DNA from: a virus
Virus record (IMG/VR): IMGVR_UViG_3300039448_000013
Coordinates: 1-37,336 of that record
Strand: one strand, 5' to 3'
Length of the DNA: 37,336 bases
Both the position numbers and the translations under genes were made by a program. The notes below the pieces were generated by a model. That model was given only the letters and a program-made list of their open reading frames with translations. It made no database searches and had not been told where the DNA came from. Positions 21,741-34,242 of this stretch are shown here, one piece after another (position 1 is the first letter of the stretch; each line of letters begins with the position of its first letter).

Positions 21741-22135
21741 AGGCTATACTCCTGCATAATTTCTTTTCGGAATCTCATGTTCAGGTCATCGTTATTATCA
21801 AGATGGCGCGACGATCCAAAACCAATAATCGACTTTACCGCCTCCAGTGCCACCTCTGGGCTTGATGGGCTTCGGCCATAGCGAGCTTTAAGGAAGTTCT
21901 GAAACGACTTTTCTCGGCAACGAGCATGCAACCACCGGCACAACTGACCGCCCTTTTCTGCTGGGGCTGGTGGCTTTAACTGCGCTTTGAGTTGTCTCAT
22001 CGTCATCAGTTGAATAGAGGCCGGACAATCGTTTAGTTGCGCTTTTAGCTTATCAGGTGTTGCATCAACCACCATCATCACCACAGCGCGGCCTTTATCG
22101 TCAGAGTGGATGTCACGAATGATTGCGCGTGTCAT
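21722..22135 (-). CDS. Conserved-looking small phage protein
   Basis: A 137-residue protein beginning MTRAIIRDIHSDDKGRAVVM, a beta-rich N-terminal half, then a segment GGQLCRWLHARCREKSFQNF and a helical C terminus ending EYSLWLTKR. This pattern is common in small phage genes next to recombination functions, but I cannot name a function. The ATG at 22135 has GAGG upstream and overlaps the preceding gene by 23 bases; a frame with 26 more residues is open but unlikely. Confidence 0.6.
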   Translation of the reverse strand: MTRAIIRDIHSDDKGRAVVMMVVDATPDKLKAQLNDCPASIQLMTMRQLKAQLKPPAPAEKGGQLCRWLHARCREKSFQNFLKARYGRSPSSPEVALEAVKSIIGFGSSRHLDNNDDLNMRFRKEIMQEYSLWLTKR

Positions 22136-22841
22136 TATTGCCTCGTTCCTGTAGTTCAATGACTGCCAACATGTTCCACGCAGCCGCCCACAAATGAGGC
22201 ATGCCGGTCTCACTATCTATGCGCTCTGTTCGCATTCTTAATAAATGACGCATTGCTGCGTCTTCATAGCGCTGCTCACCACCCGGTACTGATTGCCAAC
22301 CACCGCGAGTGTATTTAACCGCCCCGAACGTTCCGATCCTAGACACAGATTCAAGAGCCAAGCCAAAGTCCAGTAAAACACCCGCCAGAGGCTTGCCAGC
22401 ATCAAGCTTTGCGCCAGGAGCATGCTGATCTATACCCAAAGGATCAGACTGCTTCGAACTATCTGCCATATCAACACCAACAAAAGGAGCAACATCAGCA
22501 TCAAAGTGCCTGCCAGCTAACGCCATGAAGTCAGGAGCCACACTGCTCTGATTAGCCTTGGATGCAGTCTTGGGAGTAGCCACGTTATCATCAACATCTG
22601 CTGGTGGTTCCTTTACTGGCTCAACCTTCGGCTTCGACTTGCCCGCCCGTTTTCCTTCGTTTTCATCTGGTAGCATGTACGCGCCGTTCTCAATAGTAAT
22701 ATCGCCATCTTTACGCAACTGACGTAGGGCTTTGCCTGTTCCACCAATACTTAAACCCAGAACATTTGTAATGTCGGCGGCTAAGGCCGGGCCTCGTTTT
22801 AATTCATCAAGAATAGCGATTTTAATCTCTTCAATATTCAT
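22113..22841 (-). CDS. Winged-helix / dATP-dGTP diphosphohydrolase-like fusion
   Basis: A 242-residue two-domain protein. Residues 1-57 look like a winged helix (IEEIKIAILDELKRGPALAA, then a recognition helix and the wing ITIENGAYML). A long Pro/Lys/Ala linker follows to about 140. Residues 143-232 match the DUF5664 domain of phage dATP/dGTP diphosphohydrolase proteins, with the conserved layout KYTRGGW, RYEDAAMRHL and an acidic DSETGMPHLWAA segment. Such domains should hydrolyse purine dNTPs, so it may shape the nucleotide pool. The DNA-binding part is unusual. It overlaps the exonuclease gene by four bases. Confidence 0.7.
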   Translation of the reverse strand: MNIEEIKIAILDELKRGPALAADITNVLGLSIGGTGKALRQLRKDGDITIENGAYMLPDENEGKRAGKSKPKVEPVKEPPADVDDNVATPKTASKANQSSVAPDFMALAGRHFDADVAPFVGVDMADSSKQSDPLGIDQHAPGAKLDAGKPLAGVLLDFGLALESVSRIGTFGAVKYTRGGWQSVPGGEQRYEDAAMRHLLRMRTERIDSETGMPHLWAAAWNMLAVIELQERGNNDTRNHS

Positions 22842-24594: not shown

Positions 24595-24872
24595 CACTGC
24601 ACCACCTCGCCTTTTCCCTGATCACCCCACAACGTCAATGCGCCACGCACCCGGTGTGGCACTTGCACGTGTGTAGCTTTCACGATTCGAATCACGCTCT
24701 CGTGTACGTCGTAACGTTCGCACGTATCGCCTGCGGTTTTTTCTGCGCCGGTTACCCAATCACGCTTGCCGCCACAATGGTCGGCGTATTTGCAGCCGTT
24801 GCACGGGTAGTCAGCGGTGTACGCGGTAGAGTTGAATGATTTAATGCGCTCAATATCGCTTGCCATTTGCAT
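24594..24872 (-). CDS. Small Cys-rich protein
   Basis: A 92-residue protein with four Cys in the motif CNGCKYADHC plus a later DTCERY, spaced like a zinc or Fe-S binding site. The C-terminal half is beta-prone and basic (HESVIRIVKATHVQVPHRVR). Its function is unknown. The ATG at 24872 shares bases with the stop of the upstream gene (TGATG), supporting this start over a five-residue longer one. Confidence 0.6.
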   Translation of the reverse strand: MQMASDIERIKSFNSTAYTADYPCNGCKYADHCGGKRDWVTGAEKTAGDTCERYDVHESVIRIVKATHVQVPHRVRGALTLWGDQGKGEVVQ

Positions 24873-25267
24873 CACGCCGCCTCCCACTTGCCGTATTTTT
24901 TTAACGTTTTTTCAGTGGGATACCAGATCAGGCATTTGCGAGTAGTGACACGACACTCGCGTATGTTGCGGATCGGTTTGCCGTCAGCAGTGAGTTGTTC
25001 ACCTGGCATAACATTCTGAAAACTCGTACCCATGCCATCGGCTAAACGGCGTGCGCATTCATGGCGGTTTAAATCCGGATACACAGCAACAACGATGTGT
25101 GCGACTTCGGCACTCGTGAGGCCGTCGGTGTAAGTCGTCAGTACTTTTTCAAGTTGTTGAATATGCGTTTGGCGTTGGCCTGAAGCGGTCACCTCAAGCG
25201 CGGCCAGATGACTGCTGGGGGCGTCGGTTACTCGTGCTGCCGGTGTGTCGATATTGGTTGCTGTCAT
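24872..25267 (-). CDS. Hypothetical replication-region protein, possible winged helix
   Basis: A 131-residue protein. After a low-complexity N terminus, residues about 34-80 form a helical region (HIQQLEKVLTTYTDGLTSAE, then AHIVVAVYPDLNRHECARRL) that resembles a winged-helix DNA-binding module. It is followed by a basic C terminus with RECRVTTRKCLIWYP. I infer DNA binding only weakly. It is directly downstream of the replication initiator gene, in the place where lambda has gene P, but shows no helicase-loader motif. Confidence 0.55.
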   Translation of the reverse strand: MTATNIDTPAARVTDAPSSHLAALEVTASGQRQTHIQQLEKVLTTYTDGLTSAEVAHIVVAVYPDLNRHECARRLADGMGTSFQNVMPGEQLTADGKPIRNIRECRVTTRKCLIWYPTEKTLKKYGKWEAA

Positions 25268-25299: not shown

Positions 25300-26361
25300 T
25301 TACCAGCTTGTATCGGTTAAGCGCTTCATGCTGGCTTCAGCACTGCGATAATCTGGCTCTTTGCTGGGTGTTGCCCAACTGGTGTCGTTTAATCGGTTGT
25401 TCGTCCCTGCGGCGCTGGTATCCAATGCCGAAGGCGTGTGGCGGCGTTCGTTGAACTTGGCGGCCAACACGCCCCACTTCGCGCGCAGCTTGTGCGGGCT
25501 GAGTATGTTCGAGCGCCAGAATTCATCGGTATTTGCAAAGCGGAACAGCGCGGCGATTTGTTCGGGGGTTCGTTCGTCAGCGTGACGCATTAATCGAATC
25601 TCGTTGGCCCATGCGGCAATGTTCGGGCGCTTGTCATCGAGGGTGACGTCAGCCACAGCATCCGCCAGCAAGTTAGCCAGCTGCTCGTCGATGTGCTCAC
25701 CCCACAACGCCGCTTTTCCAGTGCGGCTCGCGATCACGGCGGTTGGGTGTTTTTCTTGAACGCGATCAAGCAATGATTTTTTCTCTGTCGTCGGAGTGCG
25801 TTCAGCACTCCGACAATCAGCAGGAACCTGCTGCGAGTTGTTTTTAGAAATGTCTTTAAAAGTTTCTTTAGAGTTTTCTTTATAAGGGGGGTTACCGGCG
25901 ACCCCCTGACGGGGTTGTACATAACCCCCTGACGGGGTTACCGGCGACCCCTTAACGGGGTTACCCATAACCCCGTGTTGTTTTTTGCTTCGGGGTTGTG
26001 CGCGACCCCCTACCGGGGTTGTAGATGACCCCATGCAATCCCAATCCGAAACCTGTTTATTAATGCTAAGCTCGCCAGAATTGAGCAATAAAACGCCGCG
26101 CTTAATTAATCCGCGCTTTAATTTTCCGCAGTTTTTTGCCTCGATGCCTGTCCAATTACTGAGGTCATTTTCAGTAATGCGACGGGCCTTTAATTGATAC
26201 CCGTAGGTGTTACGAACAACAGCCAGAACAACACGCAATTCACGCGCAGTTAATCCAGAGGCGACCATCAGCTGATCAACCAGACCATTCGCTAAACGTG
26301 TAAAACCCTCGCTCATGCTGGCCACCTGCTGCTGTTCGAAATGTACGATTGTTGCCGTCAT
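25300..26361 (-). CDS. Replication initiator, lambda O-like, with ori inside
   Basis: A 353-residue replication protein. Residues about 15-105 match the phage O N-terminal winged helix (GFTRLANGLVDQLMVASGLT, LRVVLAVVRNTYGYQLKARR), which binds iterons. Residues about 110-158 are encoded by the iterons themselves, giving repetitive Gly/Pro-rich sequence, followed by an AT-rich-encoded segment KENSKETFKDISKNN. The C-terminal domain has the FWRSNILSPHKLRAKWGVLA motif common in primosomal or helicase-recruiting phage proteins. No separate helicase or loader gene is evident, so this protein probably recruits host DnaB directly or through another partner. Confidence 0.85.
   Translation of the reverse strand: MTATIVHFEQQQVASMSEGFTRLANGLVDQLMVASGLTARELRVVLAVVRNTYGYQLKARRITENDLSNWTGIEAKNCGKLKRGLIKRGVLLLNSGELSINKQVSDWDCMGSSTTPVGGRAQPRSKKQHGVMGNPVKGSPVTPSGGYVQPRQGVAGNPPYKENSKETFKDISKNNSQQVPADCRSAERTPTTEKKSLLDRVQEKHPTAVIASRTGKAALWGEHIDEQLANLLADAVADVTLDDKRPNIAAWANEIRLMRHADERTPEQIAALFRFANTDEFWRSNILSPHKLRAKWGVLAAKFNERRHTPSALDTSAAGTNNRLNDTSWATPSKEPDYRSAEASMKRLTDTSW
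25837..26032. other. ori: Phage replication origin: six iterons plus AT-rich DUE
   Basis: Six 18-bp sites with the form GGGGTT-N8-CCCC/ACCCC start at 25888, 25911, 25934, 25957, 25992 and 26015. Steps are 23 bp except one of 35 bp. Each is a dyad (GGGGT/ACCCC). Copies 1 and 3 are identical: GGGGTTACCGGCGACCCC. Next to them, 25837-25885 is very AT-rich, as expected of the unwinding element. Relative to the gene, the iterons come first and the AT-rich part after, as in lambda ori within gene O. Confidence 0.9.
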
Positions 26362-27319: not shown

Positions 27320-27381
27320 TTTGCAATGAGGTTTCAGTAGCACTTGGTTTGCAATGGTAGAAAACAAACCAAATTGCATTG
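27320..27381. promoter_or_regulatory. Second operator cluster near repressor start
   Basis: GGTTTG (27346-27351) and CAAACC (27365-27370) flank the repressor start codon. TTTGCAATG occurs at 27320 and 27348, with an inverted relative (TTGCATTG) at 27373. These could be operators that let the repressor or the Cro-like protein control repressor synthesis. Confidence 0.5.
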
Positions 27382-28091
27382 AAAATAAAGAGATGGATAT
27401 ATACGAAACTCGAAGGTTAAACCTTCAACATCTTGCAGATGAGCGCTTTCCCGGCTACGGCCAAAGGGCAAAGCTCGGCGATCTAATGGACTGGAAGCAC
27501 CAGCGAGCATCAGCCCTATTGCGCGAAAAGAATCCAAAAAACATTGGAGGTACTGCTGCAAGACTAGTTGAGCAAAAGTTTAAGCTGCCCAGAGGCTGGC
27601 TGGACGAACAGCATCCAAACTTGTGGGATGGCACGATCAACTCAGTAAGAGAAGCCCTGAAAGCCTCCTACACCACCAGCGTCGATCAGATAAAACCCCA
27701 GTCCTTGCCATTACTAAAAGATGATGAAGCCGTGCGCTGGATCAGCGGCGAGCGGTTTACACCCACCAGCCGGATGCAATTCCCCATCATGCCTATGATG
27801 ACGATATCCAACGACGCATTTGTACTGGAAGAAACCACCAGCAGCATGCCACCACAAAAACCCGGCGACTTTTACTACATCGACCCACTCACAACACCAG
27901 AGAGTGGCGAATGGGCGGCGTTCATTATTGGCAGTAAGGTGGTGGTAGGTATTTACGAGAAAGGACGGGTAAGCGACCGTTTAGAGTTCACAAACGGCAA
28001 AGAAGCAGCGATTGAAATCACCGAAGACCAGCACGCGGGCAAAGTGCTTACACGCATGAACGGTGATTTTGCGAGAGGATTTGGCGGGTAA
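27354..28091 (+). CDS. Phage repressor, HTH plus S24 peptidase-like domain
   Basis: A 245-residue lysogeny repressor. The N-terminal part (residues about 14-85, LNLQHLADERFPGYGQRAKL then WKHQRASALL) is a helix-turn-helix domain. The C-terminal part from about residue 140 is S24/LexA-like: TTSSMPPQKPGDFYYIDPLT carries the likely nucleophile Ser164, and SKVVVGIYEKG follows where the Lys is expected (K195). No clear Ala-Gly cleavage site is seen in the linker. A second in-frame ATG at 27393 directly follows AAAGAG. The 27354 start has no ribosome binding site, so it may be leaderless as in lambda cI. It ends two bases from the convergent lipoprotein gene. Confidence 0.85.
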   Translation: MVENKPNCIENKEMDIYETRRLNLQHLADERFPGYGQRAKLGDLMDWKHQRASALLREKNPKNIGGTAARLVEQKFKLPRGWLDEQHPNLWDGTINSVREALKASYTTSVDQIKPQSLPLLKDDEAVRWISGERFTPTSRMQFPIMPMMTISNDAFVLEETTSSMPPQKPGDFYYIDPLTTPESGEWAAFIIGSKVVVGIYEKGRVSDRLEFTNGKEAAIEITEDQHAGKVLTRMNGDFARGFGG

Positions 28092-30765: not shown

Positions 30766-31001
30766 AAAACAAACTCACCGATCTGCAAGATCACCTATTT
30801 GCACAACTCGAACGACTTGGCGAAGAAGGTCTTGATGAGAAAACAATCGCGACCGAGATCAAACGATCTTCAGCGATGTCCGGCTTGGCAAAGCAATGCA
30901 TTGATAACGCAAGCCTCATGCTCGATGCCGCTAAATTTCAACATGAAGTAGGTCCCGGAAAATTCGTACCCGAATCCATAGGGCTTGCTCATGAAAAATA
31001 A
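30762..31001 (+). CDS. Small helical phage protein
   Basis: A 79-residue helical protein (KLTDLQDHLFAQLERLGEEG, then helices around KRSSAMSGLAKQCIDNASLM). Very similar short proteins are common in tailed phages, where their role is unknown. It starts with ATG overlapping the previous stop by four bases, and its stop overlaps the HNH gene start region. Confidence 0.65.
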   Translation: MKNKLTDLQDHLFAQLERLGEEGLDEKTIATEIKRSSAMSGLAKQCIDNASLMLDAAKFQHEVGPGKFVPESIGLAHEK

Positions 31002-31599
31002 ACAAATCGAGTGGACGCAAGAGCGTATTGAATGGGTTAGTAAAATGGTGAAGGTTTTGCCGCACAGTCAGATACCTAAGCTATTTCAAGAGGCGTTCGG
31101 TGTCCCTGTTGCAGATACCGCAATCAAAGGCGCATGTGCTCGTTACGGCATACGCACAGGGCGCAGCGGGCAATTCAAAAAAGGCAACAAATCTTGGAAC
31201 GAAGGCACCAAAGGCGTAATGAAAGCCAACGCAACCACGTTCAAAAAAGGGCAGTCACCACACAACGAAAAGCCGCTTGGCACTGAGCGAAAAACGAAAG
31301 ACGGCATTATTGAAGTCAAAGTAAAAATGACAGGCAAAAGCTGCGAACGCTGGCAGAGCAAGCACAGCTTGCTTTGGGAACAGCGCACAGGTCAAAAAGT
31401 GCCAGCAGGCCACGTGGTGATGTTTGCGGATGGCAATCGCAGCAACTACGACCAAAGCAACCTTCGCTTAGTTAGCCGTCGTGTGAACGTTACGCATAAT
31501 TCACGCGGATACAGCCACCAGCCAGAGGAAATACGCCCGGCGTTGTTGGCCGTCGCACAACTAGACACCGCTATTAAACAAAATCAGGAGGCTCTATGA
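30991..31599 (+). CDS. HNH homing-type endonuclease
   Basis: A 202-residue HNH nuclease with an N-terminal helical DNA-binding part (IEWVSKMVKVLPHSQIPKLF), a basic linker containing NKSWNEGTKG, and a C-terminal HNH core (KHSLLWEQRTGQKVPAGHVV, FADGNRSNYDQSNLRLVSRR) in which His and Asn of the motif are visible. This layout is that of free-standing phage HNH homing nucleases rather than the packaging HNH at 18.3 kb. It may be a selfish insertion, or it may be a cargo gene. The ATG at 30991 is preferred over the TTG at 30985. Confidence 0.8.
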   Translation: MKNKQIEWTQERIEWVSKMVKVLPHSQIPKLFQEAFGVPVADTAIKGACARYGIRTGRSGQFKKGNKSWNEGTKGVMKANATTFKKGQSPHNEKPLGTERKTKDGIIEVKVKMTGKSCERWQSKHSLLWEQRTGQKVPAGHVVMFADGNRSNYDQSNLRLVSRRVNVTHNSRGYSHQPEEIRPALLAVAQLDTAIKQNQEAL

Positions 31600-32111: not shown

Positions 32112-32797
32112 TGAAAGCACTACCGATGATTTTTAATACTGAAATGGTTCAGGCGTTGATGGATGGAAAAAAGGTGCAGACGCGGAGGCCATTTTCGATG
32201 CCGCAAGGATGGGATTTAAAGGATGGTAATTTGTGCAAAATTACTGGGAAACACCCTAAGAGCGGAAAATGGGGCGTGATGATCCGTCGGGAGCTATACG
32301 ACGGTCGCTATGAGCATGACCTTGTAGTTGCTCCGGCTATGCCTGGCGACCTGATCTATGTTCGTGAGACGTTTTGCAAAGTTGACGATACAGAGCATGG
32401 CGAAGATGTTTGGGTTGACTACCGAGCCACACCGAAATATTCAAGTGAACACCCAGCAGGCTGGGATTGTGACCCGGATAATCCTTATGCGCTGAAGTGG
32501 AAGCCATCAATTCACATGCCGCGTGAACTTAGCCGAATCACTCTGAAAGTTACCAGCGTTCGCGTTGAGCGAGTACAGGATATTTCACTAAATGACTGTA
32601 TTGCTGAAGGCTTCCGGGGTGGGCACGGGAGTATCCCCGGCTATATGTACAGCGCCACCCCGAAAGAACACTTCAGTGAAACATGGAAGCAAATCTACGG
32701 CGACCACTGGGATAACAACGGCTGGGTGTGGGTAATCGACTTTGAAGTTATCCAAGCTAACGTAGATGCAGTAATTGAAAAGATGGGGGTGGCGTGA
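32108..32797 (+). CDS. ASCH/PUA-like phage protein
   Basis: A 229-residue protein with a fold like ASCH domains. The start (MIFNTEMVQALMDGKKVQTRRPF) and the middle (PAMPGDLIYVRETFCKV) match this group, as does the end (WKQIYGDHWDNNGWVWVIDF). ASCH proteins bind RNA or modified nucleotides; in phages they are common next to methyltransferases and of unclear function. It is coupled to the cytosine methyltransferase gene (overlap TGATG). Confidence 0.75.
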   Translation: MMKALPMIFNTEMVQALMDGKKVQTRRPFSMPQGWDLKDGNLCKITGKHPKSGKWGVMIRRELYDGRYEHDLVVAPAMPGDLIYVRETFCKVDDTEHGEDVWVDYRATPKYSSEHPAGWDCDPDNPYALKWKPSIHMPRELSRITLKVTSVRVERVQDISLNDCIAEGFRGGHGSIPGYMYSATPKEHFSETWKQIYGDHWDNNGWVWVIDFEVIQANVDAVIEKMGVA

Positions 32798-34242
32798 TGC
32801 ACATTTACAACGCTACCCAAGGCCAAATGGGACTACATCTACCCAACGCCCTGATCGTCGACAACTTCGCCGGTGGTGGCGGTGCATCAATGGGCCTAGA
32901 AATTGCATTCAATCGCCCGGTTGATATAGCAATCAACCACAACTCTGAAGCGATCTCTATGCACCTGGTGAACCACCCTGACACAGAACACTACTGCGAA
33001 TCAGTCTTTGACGTAGACCCAATAAAAGCCACATATGGCTTGCCGGTTGAATGGGCGCACTTTTCGCCAGACTGCACACATCACAGCAAAGCCCGTGGTG
33101 GCAAGCCAAAAAAGAAAGAGATACGCGGCCTAGCTTGGATTGTTATTAAATGGGCAATACTCAAGCGCCCCGAAAAAATAAGCCTTGAGAATGTCGAAGA
33201 ATTTAAAACGTGGGGGCCACTGAATGAAGAAGGCCACCCGATTAAAGAACGTGCCGGAGAAACCTTCGACGCCTTTATTTTAATGCTCACCACCGGCATT
33301 AAAAAATCACACCCAGCCACGAAAGAGCTACGCGAATTTTTACCCGCTGGCTTTGATATAACAGCAGTATTTAAAGGGCTTGGCTACACCGTCGATTTCA
33401 AAGAATTGCGCGCCTGCGACTACGGCATACCAACCACCCGAAAACGTTTTTTTATGGTTGCCCGCTGCGATGGCGATCAAGTGCAATGGCCAGAACCAAC
33501 ACACGGCCAAGGCTTACTCCCATACAAAACCGCCGCCGACTGCATTGACTGGTCGATACCCTGCCCGTCGATATTTACCCGCAAAAAACCGTTGGTAGAA
33601 AACACCATGAAGCGCATTGCTCGTGGCTTGAAACGCTTCGTTATCGATGCAGAGAACCCGTATTTAATCGACAACAACAAAGTGACCTTCATCACCGAAC
33701 ACGCCAACGCCAGCAACCAACGAAACATGCCAAGTGACGAGCCATTGCGCACAATTTGCGCGGGCGTAAAAGGCGGGCACTTTGCATTAGTTACCGCATT
33801 TCTCGTTAAACATTACGGCGGCAACTACACCGGCGCAGGCATCGACATGCGCGCCCCACTCGACACGATAACCACCACCGATCACCACGCCCTAGTGTCA
33901 GCATTTTTAGTTAAATACTACGGCAACGACAAAGACGGCTGCGACATAAACCAGCCTCTACACACCATAACAACCAATGATCGATTTGGATTAGTGCTCG
34001 TAAAAATAAACGGCGAGACCTACAAGATAATCGACATCGGAATGCGCATGCTTACAGCCCACGAGCTGTACATTGCGCAAGGATTCCCAGAGGGATACAT
34101 CCACGACCGCACCGCTGACGGAAAACCACTCTCTAAAACCGCACAAGTTCGCATGGTTGGCAACTCAGTACCACCGGGATTAATAGCAGCCATTGCCAAA
34201 GCCAATACCGAACAACAACAGAAAAACCGGAGAGCGGCGTGA
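32797..34242 (+). CDS. DNA cytosine-C5 methyltransferase
   Basis: A 481-residue methyltransferase. The AdoMet motif is NFAGGGGASMG (23-33), motif IV is SPDCTHHS (90-97) with catalytic Cys93, motif VI is ENVEEF (131-136), and motif VIII is GIPTTRKRFFMVAR. The target recognition part has a twofold internal repeat (PLDTITTTDHHALVSAFLVK and a second copy with PLHTITTNDRFGLV). Motifs IX and X are in QGFPEGY and QVRMVGNSVPP. No restriction enzyme gene is adjacent, so it is a solitary methyltransferase, likely protecting phage DNA from host restriction or regulating expression. The sequence it modifies cannot be read. Confidence 0.93.
   Translation: MHIYNATQGQMGLHLPNALIVDNFAGGGGASMGLEIAFNRPVDIAINHNSEAISMHLVNHPDTEHYCESVFDVDPIKATYGLPVEWAHFSPDCTHHSKARGGKPKKKEIRGLAWIVIKWAILKRPEKISLENVEEFKTWGPLNEEGHPIKERAGETFDAFILMLTTGIKKSHPATKELREFLPAGFDITAVFKGLGYTVDFKELRACDYGIPTTRKRFFMVARCDGDQVQWPEPTHGQGLLPYKTAADCIDWSIPCPSIFTRKKPLVENTMKRIARGLKRFVIDAENPYLIDNNKVTFITEHANASNQRNMPSDEPLRTICAGVKGGHFALVTAFLVKHYGGNYTGAGIDMRAPLDTITTTDHHALVSAFLVKYYGNDKDGCDINQPLHTITTNDRFGLVLVKINGETYKIIDIGMRMLTAHELYIAQGFPEGYIHDRTADGKPLSKTAQVRMVGNSVPPGLIAAIAKANTEQQQKNRRAA

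Follow-up and report, generated by a model that had tools for sequence, protein, structure and literature searches.

Bacteriophages of the lambda kind start replication within the coding sequence of their own initiator, gene O, and the virus record IMGVR_UViG_3300039448_000013 (37,336 bases, analyzed in full and called the window here) raises the question of whether it does the same. One of its genes, at 25300-26361, resembles O and contains a series of short repeats followed by an AT-rich stretch. We propose that this array is very probably where the phage begins to replicate, a lambda-type origin with an initiator specificity of its own.

An array of dyads inside an O-type initiator gene

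By curated models, the product of this gene is classed as a true O-type initiator. It matches PF04492 (Phage_rep_O) with an E-value of 7.5e-23 and 81 bits (cut-off 28.7), the NCBIfam equivalog-domain model TIGR01610 (phage_O_Nterm) with 69 bits (cut-off 45.5), and the PHROG family of O-like initiators, phrog_277, over 324 residues (E 6e-58); its N-terminal domain thus places it in the phage O family. An AlphaFold2 model with a mean confidence of 58, exceeding 70 only in the domain parts, predicts a winged-helix N-domain (helices at residues 39-54, 64-71 and 75-87, and a two-strand wing at 91-100) that a disordered linker joins to a C-domain made of helices. The linker residues, 111-220, mostly score below 50 for predicted local distance difference and lie between the two folded domains. 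Structural alignment with VIA-align relates the model to winged-helix folds, including the N-domain of DnaD (Z 8.1), and covers almost the N-domain alone; for the C-domain the model gives putative helices. A sequence search against solved structures yielded no usable match for the O protein by itself and, with an O profile, weak MarR-type winged-helix matches only, and Foldseek found no match to the model in the PDB at E 0.001 or better.

Six dyads of 18 bp each (25888-26032) are found in the gene between its N-domain and C-domain coding parts and read GGGGT(C/T)-N6-AACCCC on the coding strand (consensus GGGGTYRYNNRYAACCCC). Their start-to-start steps are 23, 23, 23, 35 and 23 bp along the record, or 23/35/23/23/23 in the direction of the gene (Table 1). 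The pattern GGGGTTNNNNNNNACCCC matches these six dyads and nothing else in the 37.3-kb record, compared with an average of 0.02 matches in 100 dinucleotide shuffles. An AT-rich block, presumed to be the unwinding element, adjoins the array on its 3' side in gene direction; its 17 codons have a GC content of 0.235, as against 0.49 for the window. An earlier note on this DNA had described six repeats within the O-like gene, a single extra gap of 12 bp and a following AT-rich block, all of which are borne out, the gap being the one 35-bp step among 23-bp steps. It had also written the repeats as 23-bp GGGGTT-N8-ACCCC iterons; the 23-bp step stands, while the unit is an 18-bp dyad and the spacer, in the form given, comes to N7.

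Successive copies of the dyad rotate through three reading frames, giving the peptides GVxGNP, GSxxTP and GGxxQPR, and the Gly and Pro content of the linker is 0.36 compared with 0.11 for the whole protein; the same note had anticipated both the rotation and a Gly/Pro-rich linker imposed by the repeats. Such a composition, in a segment that is disordered in the model, could also point to a feature of the protein only, a repetitive Gly/Pro linker that arose by duplication and has no role as DNA. However, the peptide varies from copy to copy with the frame while the DNA arms are identical, and the dyads are lost when the linker peptide is recoded synonymously with the phage's own codon use: among 20,000 trials, 93% had no dyad and the maximum was two, against the six observed. 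The Gly/Pro-rich peptide thus does not account for the repeats; rather, it is itself a by-product of them. An explanation at the protein level alone is already contradicted by these results and is barely conceivable.

Table 1. Positions of the features discussed, in coordinates of the window (iterons numbered in gene direction; sequences given on the coding strand)
Feature	Coordinates	Strand	Basis
O-type replication initiator gene, 353 aa	25300..26361	-	PF04492, phrog_277, TIGR01610
N-domain coding part (residues 13-107; winged helix, DNA-binding)	26041..26325	-	Pfam stretch 13-107; AlphaFold2 model; fold matches
Iteron 1, GGGGTCATCTACAACCCC	26015..26032		Pattern scan and dyad detector
Iteron 2, GGGGTCGCGCACAACCCC	25992..26009		Pattern scan and dyad detector
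A-rich spacer, 17 bp, GAAGCAAAAAACAACAC, source of the 35-bp step	25975..25991		Comparison with L011
Iteron 3, GGGGTTATGGGTAACCCC	25957..25974		Pattern scan and dyad detector
Iteron 4, GGGGTCGCCGGTAACCCC	25934..25951		Pattern scan and dyad detector
Iteron 5, GGGGTTATGTACAACCCC	25911..25928		Pattern scan and dyad detector
Iteron 6, adjoining the AT-rich block, GGGGTCGCCGGTAACCCC	25888..25905		Pattern scan and dyad detector
AT-rich block, presumed unwinding element; A-rich, with 26 A and 13 T among the 51 coding-strand bases	25837..25887		Composition; comparison with L011
C-domain coding part (residues 184-310; helical), presumed to recruit the helicase or its loader	25432..25812	-	Common to loci with unrelated N-domains; AlphaFold2 helices 223-308
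Small gene (131 aa) immediately downstream of O, where relatives have P	24872..25267	-	Conserved in L011
Repressor-like gene in the position of CI, transcribed away from the O operon	27354..28091	+	phrog_12107 transcriptional repressor, E 2.9e-9

The array is conserved as DNA

An uncharacterized relative, IMGVR_UViG_3300025126_000110 (L011), has the same gene order around O, and its O protein is 66% identical in amino acids. Its O gene lacks the first dyad and carries the other five with unchanged arms; the cores and the linker peptide differ, and the 35-bp step, the A-rich spacer and the AT block are kept. The outer bases of the arms (GGGGT and AACCCC, five and six bases) are identical in all 11 copies from the window and L011, despite the three reading frames in which they are translated. 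At third codon positions, the two genes agree at 19/22 sites in the arms (0.86) and 14/17 in the AT block (0.82), as against 5/14 in the dyad cores (0.36), 31/95 in the N-domain (0.33) and 66/126 in the C-domain (0.52); the counts for the arms and the AT block are small and the direction is clear. Because third-codon identity in the arms is high relative to the coded domains, it is the DNA itself that is conserved, and the DNA of both the arms and the AT block is, as judged from these alignments, under selection.

Conserved palindromes might act instead in the O mRNA, as hairpins that pause translation or end transcription, and the coding strand does fold unusually well as RNA (z -4.7). Such folding is, however, expected by construction from DNA palindromes, and the arms are invariant, so that no compensatory change supports the pairing. 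Further, terminator-like matches in the region are near shuffle level, and hairpins would leave both the 23-bp periodicity and the AT-rich neighbour unexplained. We regard a function as RNA as extremely improbable.

The repeat follows the N-terminal domain of the initiator

For a wider comparison we ran a recurring-dyad detector over 23-25 O genes. The detector recovers the known lambda iterons and the annotated iterons of phage 434, which served as positive controls, and it finds arrays in the same linker between N- and C-domain in nearly all O genes examined, mostly with an A-rich stretch next to them. The repeat sequences vary by group (TCCCT, TTAGC, TGTCAC, TTTAC, TTACC and others), with 3-5 iterons of different sequences in other lambdoid O genes. 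Iteron similarity tracks N-domain identity, with a partial r of 0.71 for 23 genes and 0.54 for 11 dereplicated genes (permutation p ≤0.003), and it does not track C-domain identity (partial r -0.03 to -0.12), in a test that is modest in size and whose permutation ignores the tree. Further, four loci (L007, L041, L043 and L114) have the same C-domain behind unrelated N-domains, the modular picture that iteron reading by the N-domain would predict. The sequences by themselves thus show that a repeat is tied to its N-domain whereas the C-domain swaps freely, and the window would add a new initiator and iteron specificity to the lambda-type origins. At L007:3800-4010, where the same C-domain is found with another N-domain, the repeat is a different one (GCCGCGCAT) and an AT-rich stretch comes after it.

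This covariation also bears on the proposal that the dyads are operators, bound by a repressor or by O in autoregulation, and not an origin. Palindromes of 18 bp are what dimeric regulators typically bind, and a repressor-like gene lies nearby. However, the array sits deep in the gene, ~1.3 kb from the start of that divergent gene, and has no promoter-like site around it; its AT-rich flank stands in the order seen in O-gene origins, and the sequence of the sites tracks the O N-domain. These features make an operator very unlikely.

A probable lambda-type origin and how it might fire

The likeness to the lambda origin in gene O, drawn in the earlier note, is supported by the place, order and A-rich flank of the array together with the O-family matches. 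We observe the array, its site between the coding domains, its DNA-level conservation in L011 and the covariation of repeat and N-domain; for the events at the origin, the steps known from lambda offer the most economical mechanism. There, dimers of O occupy the iterons and negative supercoiling opens the AT-rich region beside them; P, to which the C-terminal part of O binds, delivers DnaB (PMC5043065, PMC6022878, PMC3640518). By analogy, the winged-helix N-domain of O would bind the six dyads, presumably with one dimer per dyad, and the O-loaded array would wrap or bend the DNA. Negative supercoiling would then open the AT-rich block on the 3' side, and the C-domain would bring the host replicative helicase.

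Several results weigh against a lambda-type origin. The GC content of the AT-rich block is only weakly below that expected for its peptide under phage codon use (P = 0.064), and the GC skew does not clearly change direction at the precise site of the array. No DnaA box or IHF site was matched near the array, although neither is taken as defining an origin of this type. Finally, nothing in the record matches lambda P (PF06992), DnaB (DnaB_C) or DnaC/IstB, and the loading step therefore cannot be read from the sequence.

The helicase-loader gene

The P-type loader gene that directly follows O in the lambda O-P replication module is not found here. Among 80 loci with this C-domain, 79 have a P-like gene that overlaps or touches the end of O, and the sole exception, L040, is the same contig as L011. 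A hidden Markov model of eight P proteins, which finds a P gene in 79 of the 80 related loci, finds none in the window or in L011. In the position of P there is a small gene (Table 1) whose L011 copy resembles phrog_1123, a family of unknown function. Its candidacy as a replacement for P is unsupported: it has no phage or plasmid match and is unrelated to the MarR genes found downstream of P in Klebsiella phages.

With P absent after this C-domain, O may use host DnaB/DnaC directly or a phage protein that we do not recognize, perhaps a small one. That an O whose C-domain is normally paired with P would start replication without it in either of these ways is a tentative and somewhat doubtful suggestion; if true, the C-domain would have switched partner. 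Alternatively, the record may be incomplete, so that P might be located elsewhere or have diverged too far. The missing gene makes this locus a concrete test of helicase loading by O without its usual partner.

The C-terminal tail of O (25300-25400) carries a motif twice, RLNDTSW ... RLTDTSW, and in relatives one similar NDTSW/NTDW motif stands at the end, perhaps a partner-binding peptide.

Similar dyads in other viral contigs

We also scanned a viral contig collection without regard to protein, requiring two adjacent GGGGT-N8-ACCCC dyads. The scan returned 11 contigs, and in 10 of them the array lies inside or just past a helix-turn-helix (HTH) gene, mostly of replication-initiation families. 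In six contigs the array falls within a gene that has a replication-initiation match (L011, L031, L033, L037, L038 and, weakly, L032), and in four G+C-rich contigs (L010, L034, L035 and L036) it begins just past the stop codon of a short HTH-like gene, which has no initiator match in L035 and L036 and a weak one in L010. The layout of these four is that of an origin behind the initiator gene rather than inside it. Tandem GGGGTT-N-AACCCC dyads at L009:7640-7760 are intergenic, with no initiator gene seen adjoining, and are possibly a free-standing origin or operator. The matches of the scan represent convergence of layout and not homology, several of the proteins being unrelated beyond the HTH. 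The inverted-order pattern CCCCA..TGGGG occurs in one contig (L039), which itself has an iteron-like array in an initiator gene, and the pattern is therefore not a clean negative control. These results suggest that a protein-blind search for tandem G/C-flanked dyads is a cheap route to phage origins.

Other genes of the record

The phage is temperate, and its record also holds genes for terminase, tail and integrase. In the early operon, the C-terminal half of the 22113-22841 protein matches the N-terminal domain of dATP/dGTP diphosphohydrolase (PF18909), and its gene adjoins those for an RNase T-type exonuclease and SSB. The right arm has a DNA methyltransferase gene (32794-34242) near an HNH endonuclease (30985-31599). 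A TonB receptor in L008, the sole result of a scan for contigs of close relatives, shares a short peptide only and was rejected as a chance match.

Comparison with known origins

The layout of this origin candidate is known already; its repeat sequence is new, and the usual adjoining loader gene is missing. Iteron plasmids of the RK2, P1 and R6K type likewise have tandem initiator sites beside an AT-rich region. Unlike theirs, the units in the window are palindromes, and the initiator has a Pfam match to the O family and none to a plasmid Rep family. The oriL of SPP1, in gene 38, has initiator-binding repeats and an AT-rich region inside the initiator gene (PMC6316719), as in the window; SPP1 is a Bacillus phage with initiator gp38, loader gp39 and helicase gp40, and is compared here by layout only.

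The ori-lambda of lambda and 434 shares with the window an O-type initiator with an N-terminal DNA-binding domain, iterons inside the gene between the domains, an AT-rich block on the 3' side and a repressor-led early operon (PMC5043065, PMC6022878). In lambda and 434, however, four 17-19-bp iterons (TCCCT..AGGGA) follow at steps of 20/24/23, whereas the window has six (GGGGTY..AACCCC) at 23/35/23/23/23 and lacks a P gene. The view in the earlier note that the iterons are more numerous than those of lambda and of different sequence holds for six against four, although six are already known in gene O of the Stx phages 933W and P27 (PMC7466680). Unlike those of the window, the Stx phage iterons are near-identical to lambda's, and a P gene is present. 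L011 shares with the window the absence of P, the gene after O, the AT block, the 35-bp step and the dyad arms.
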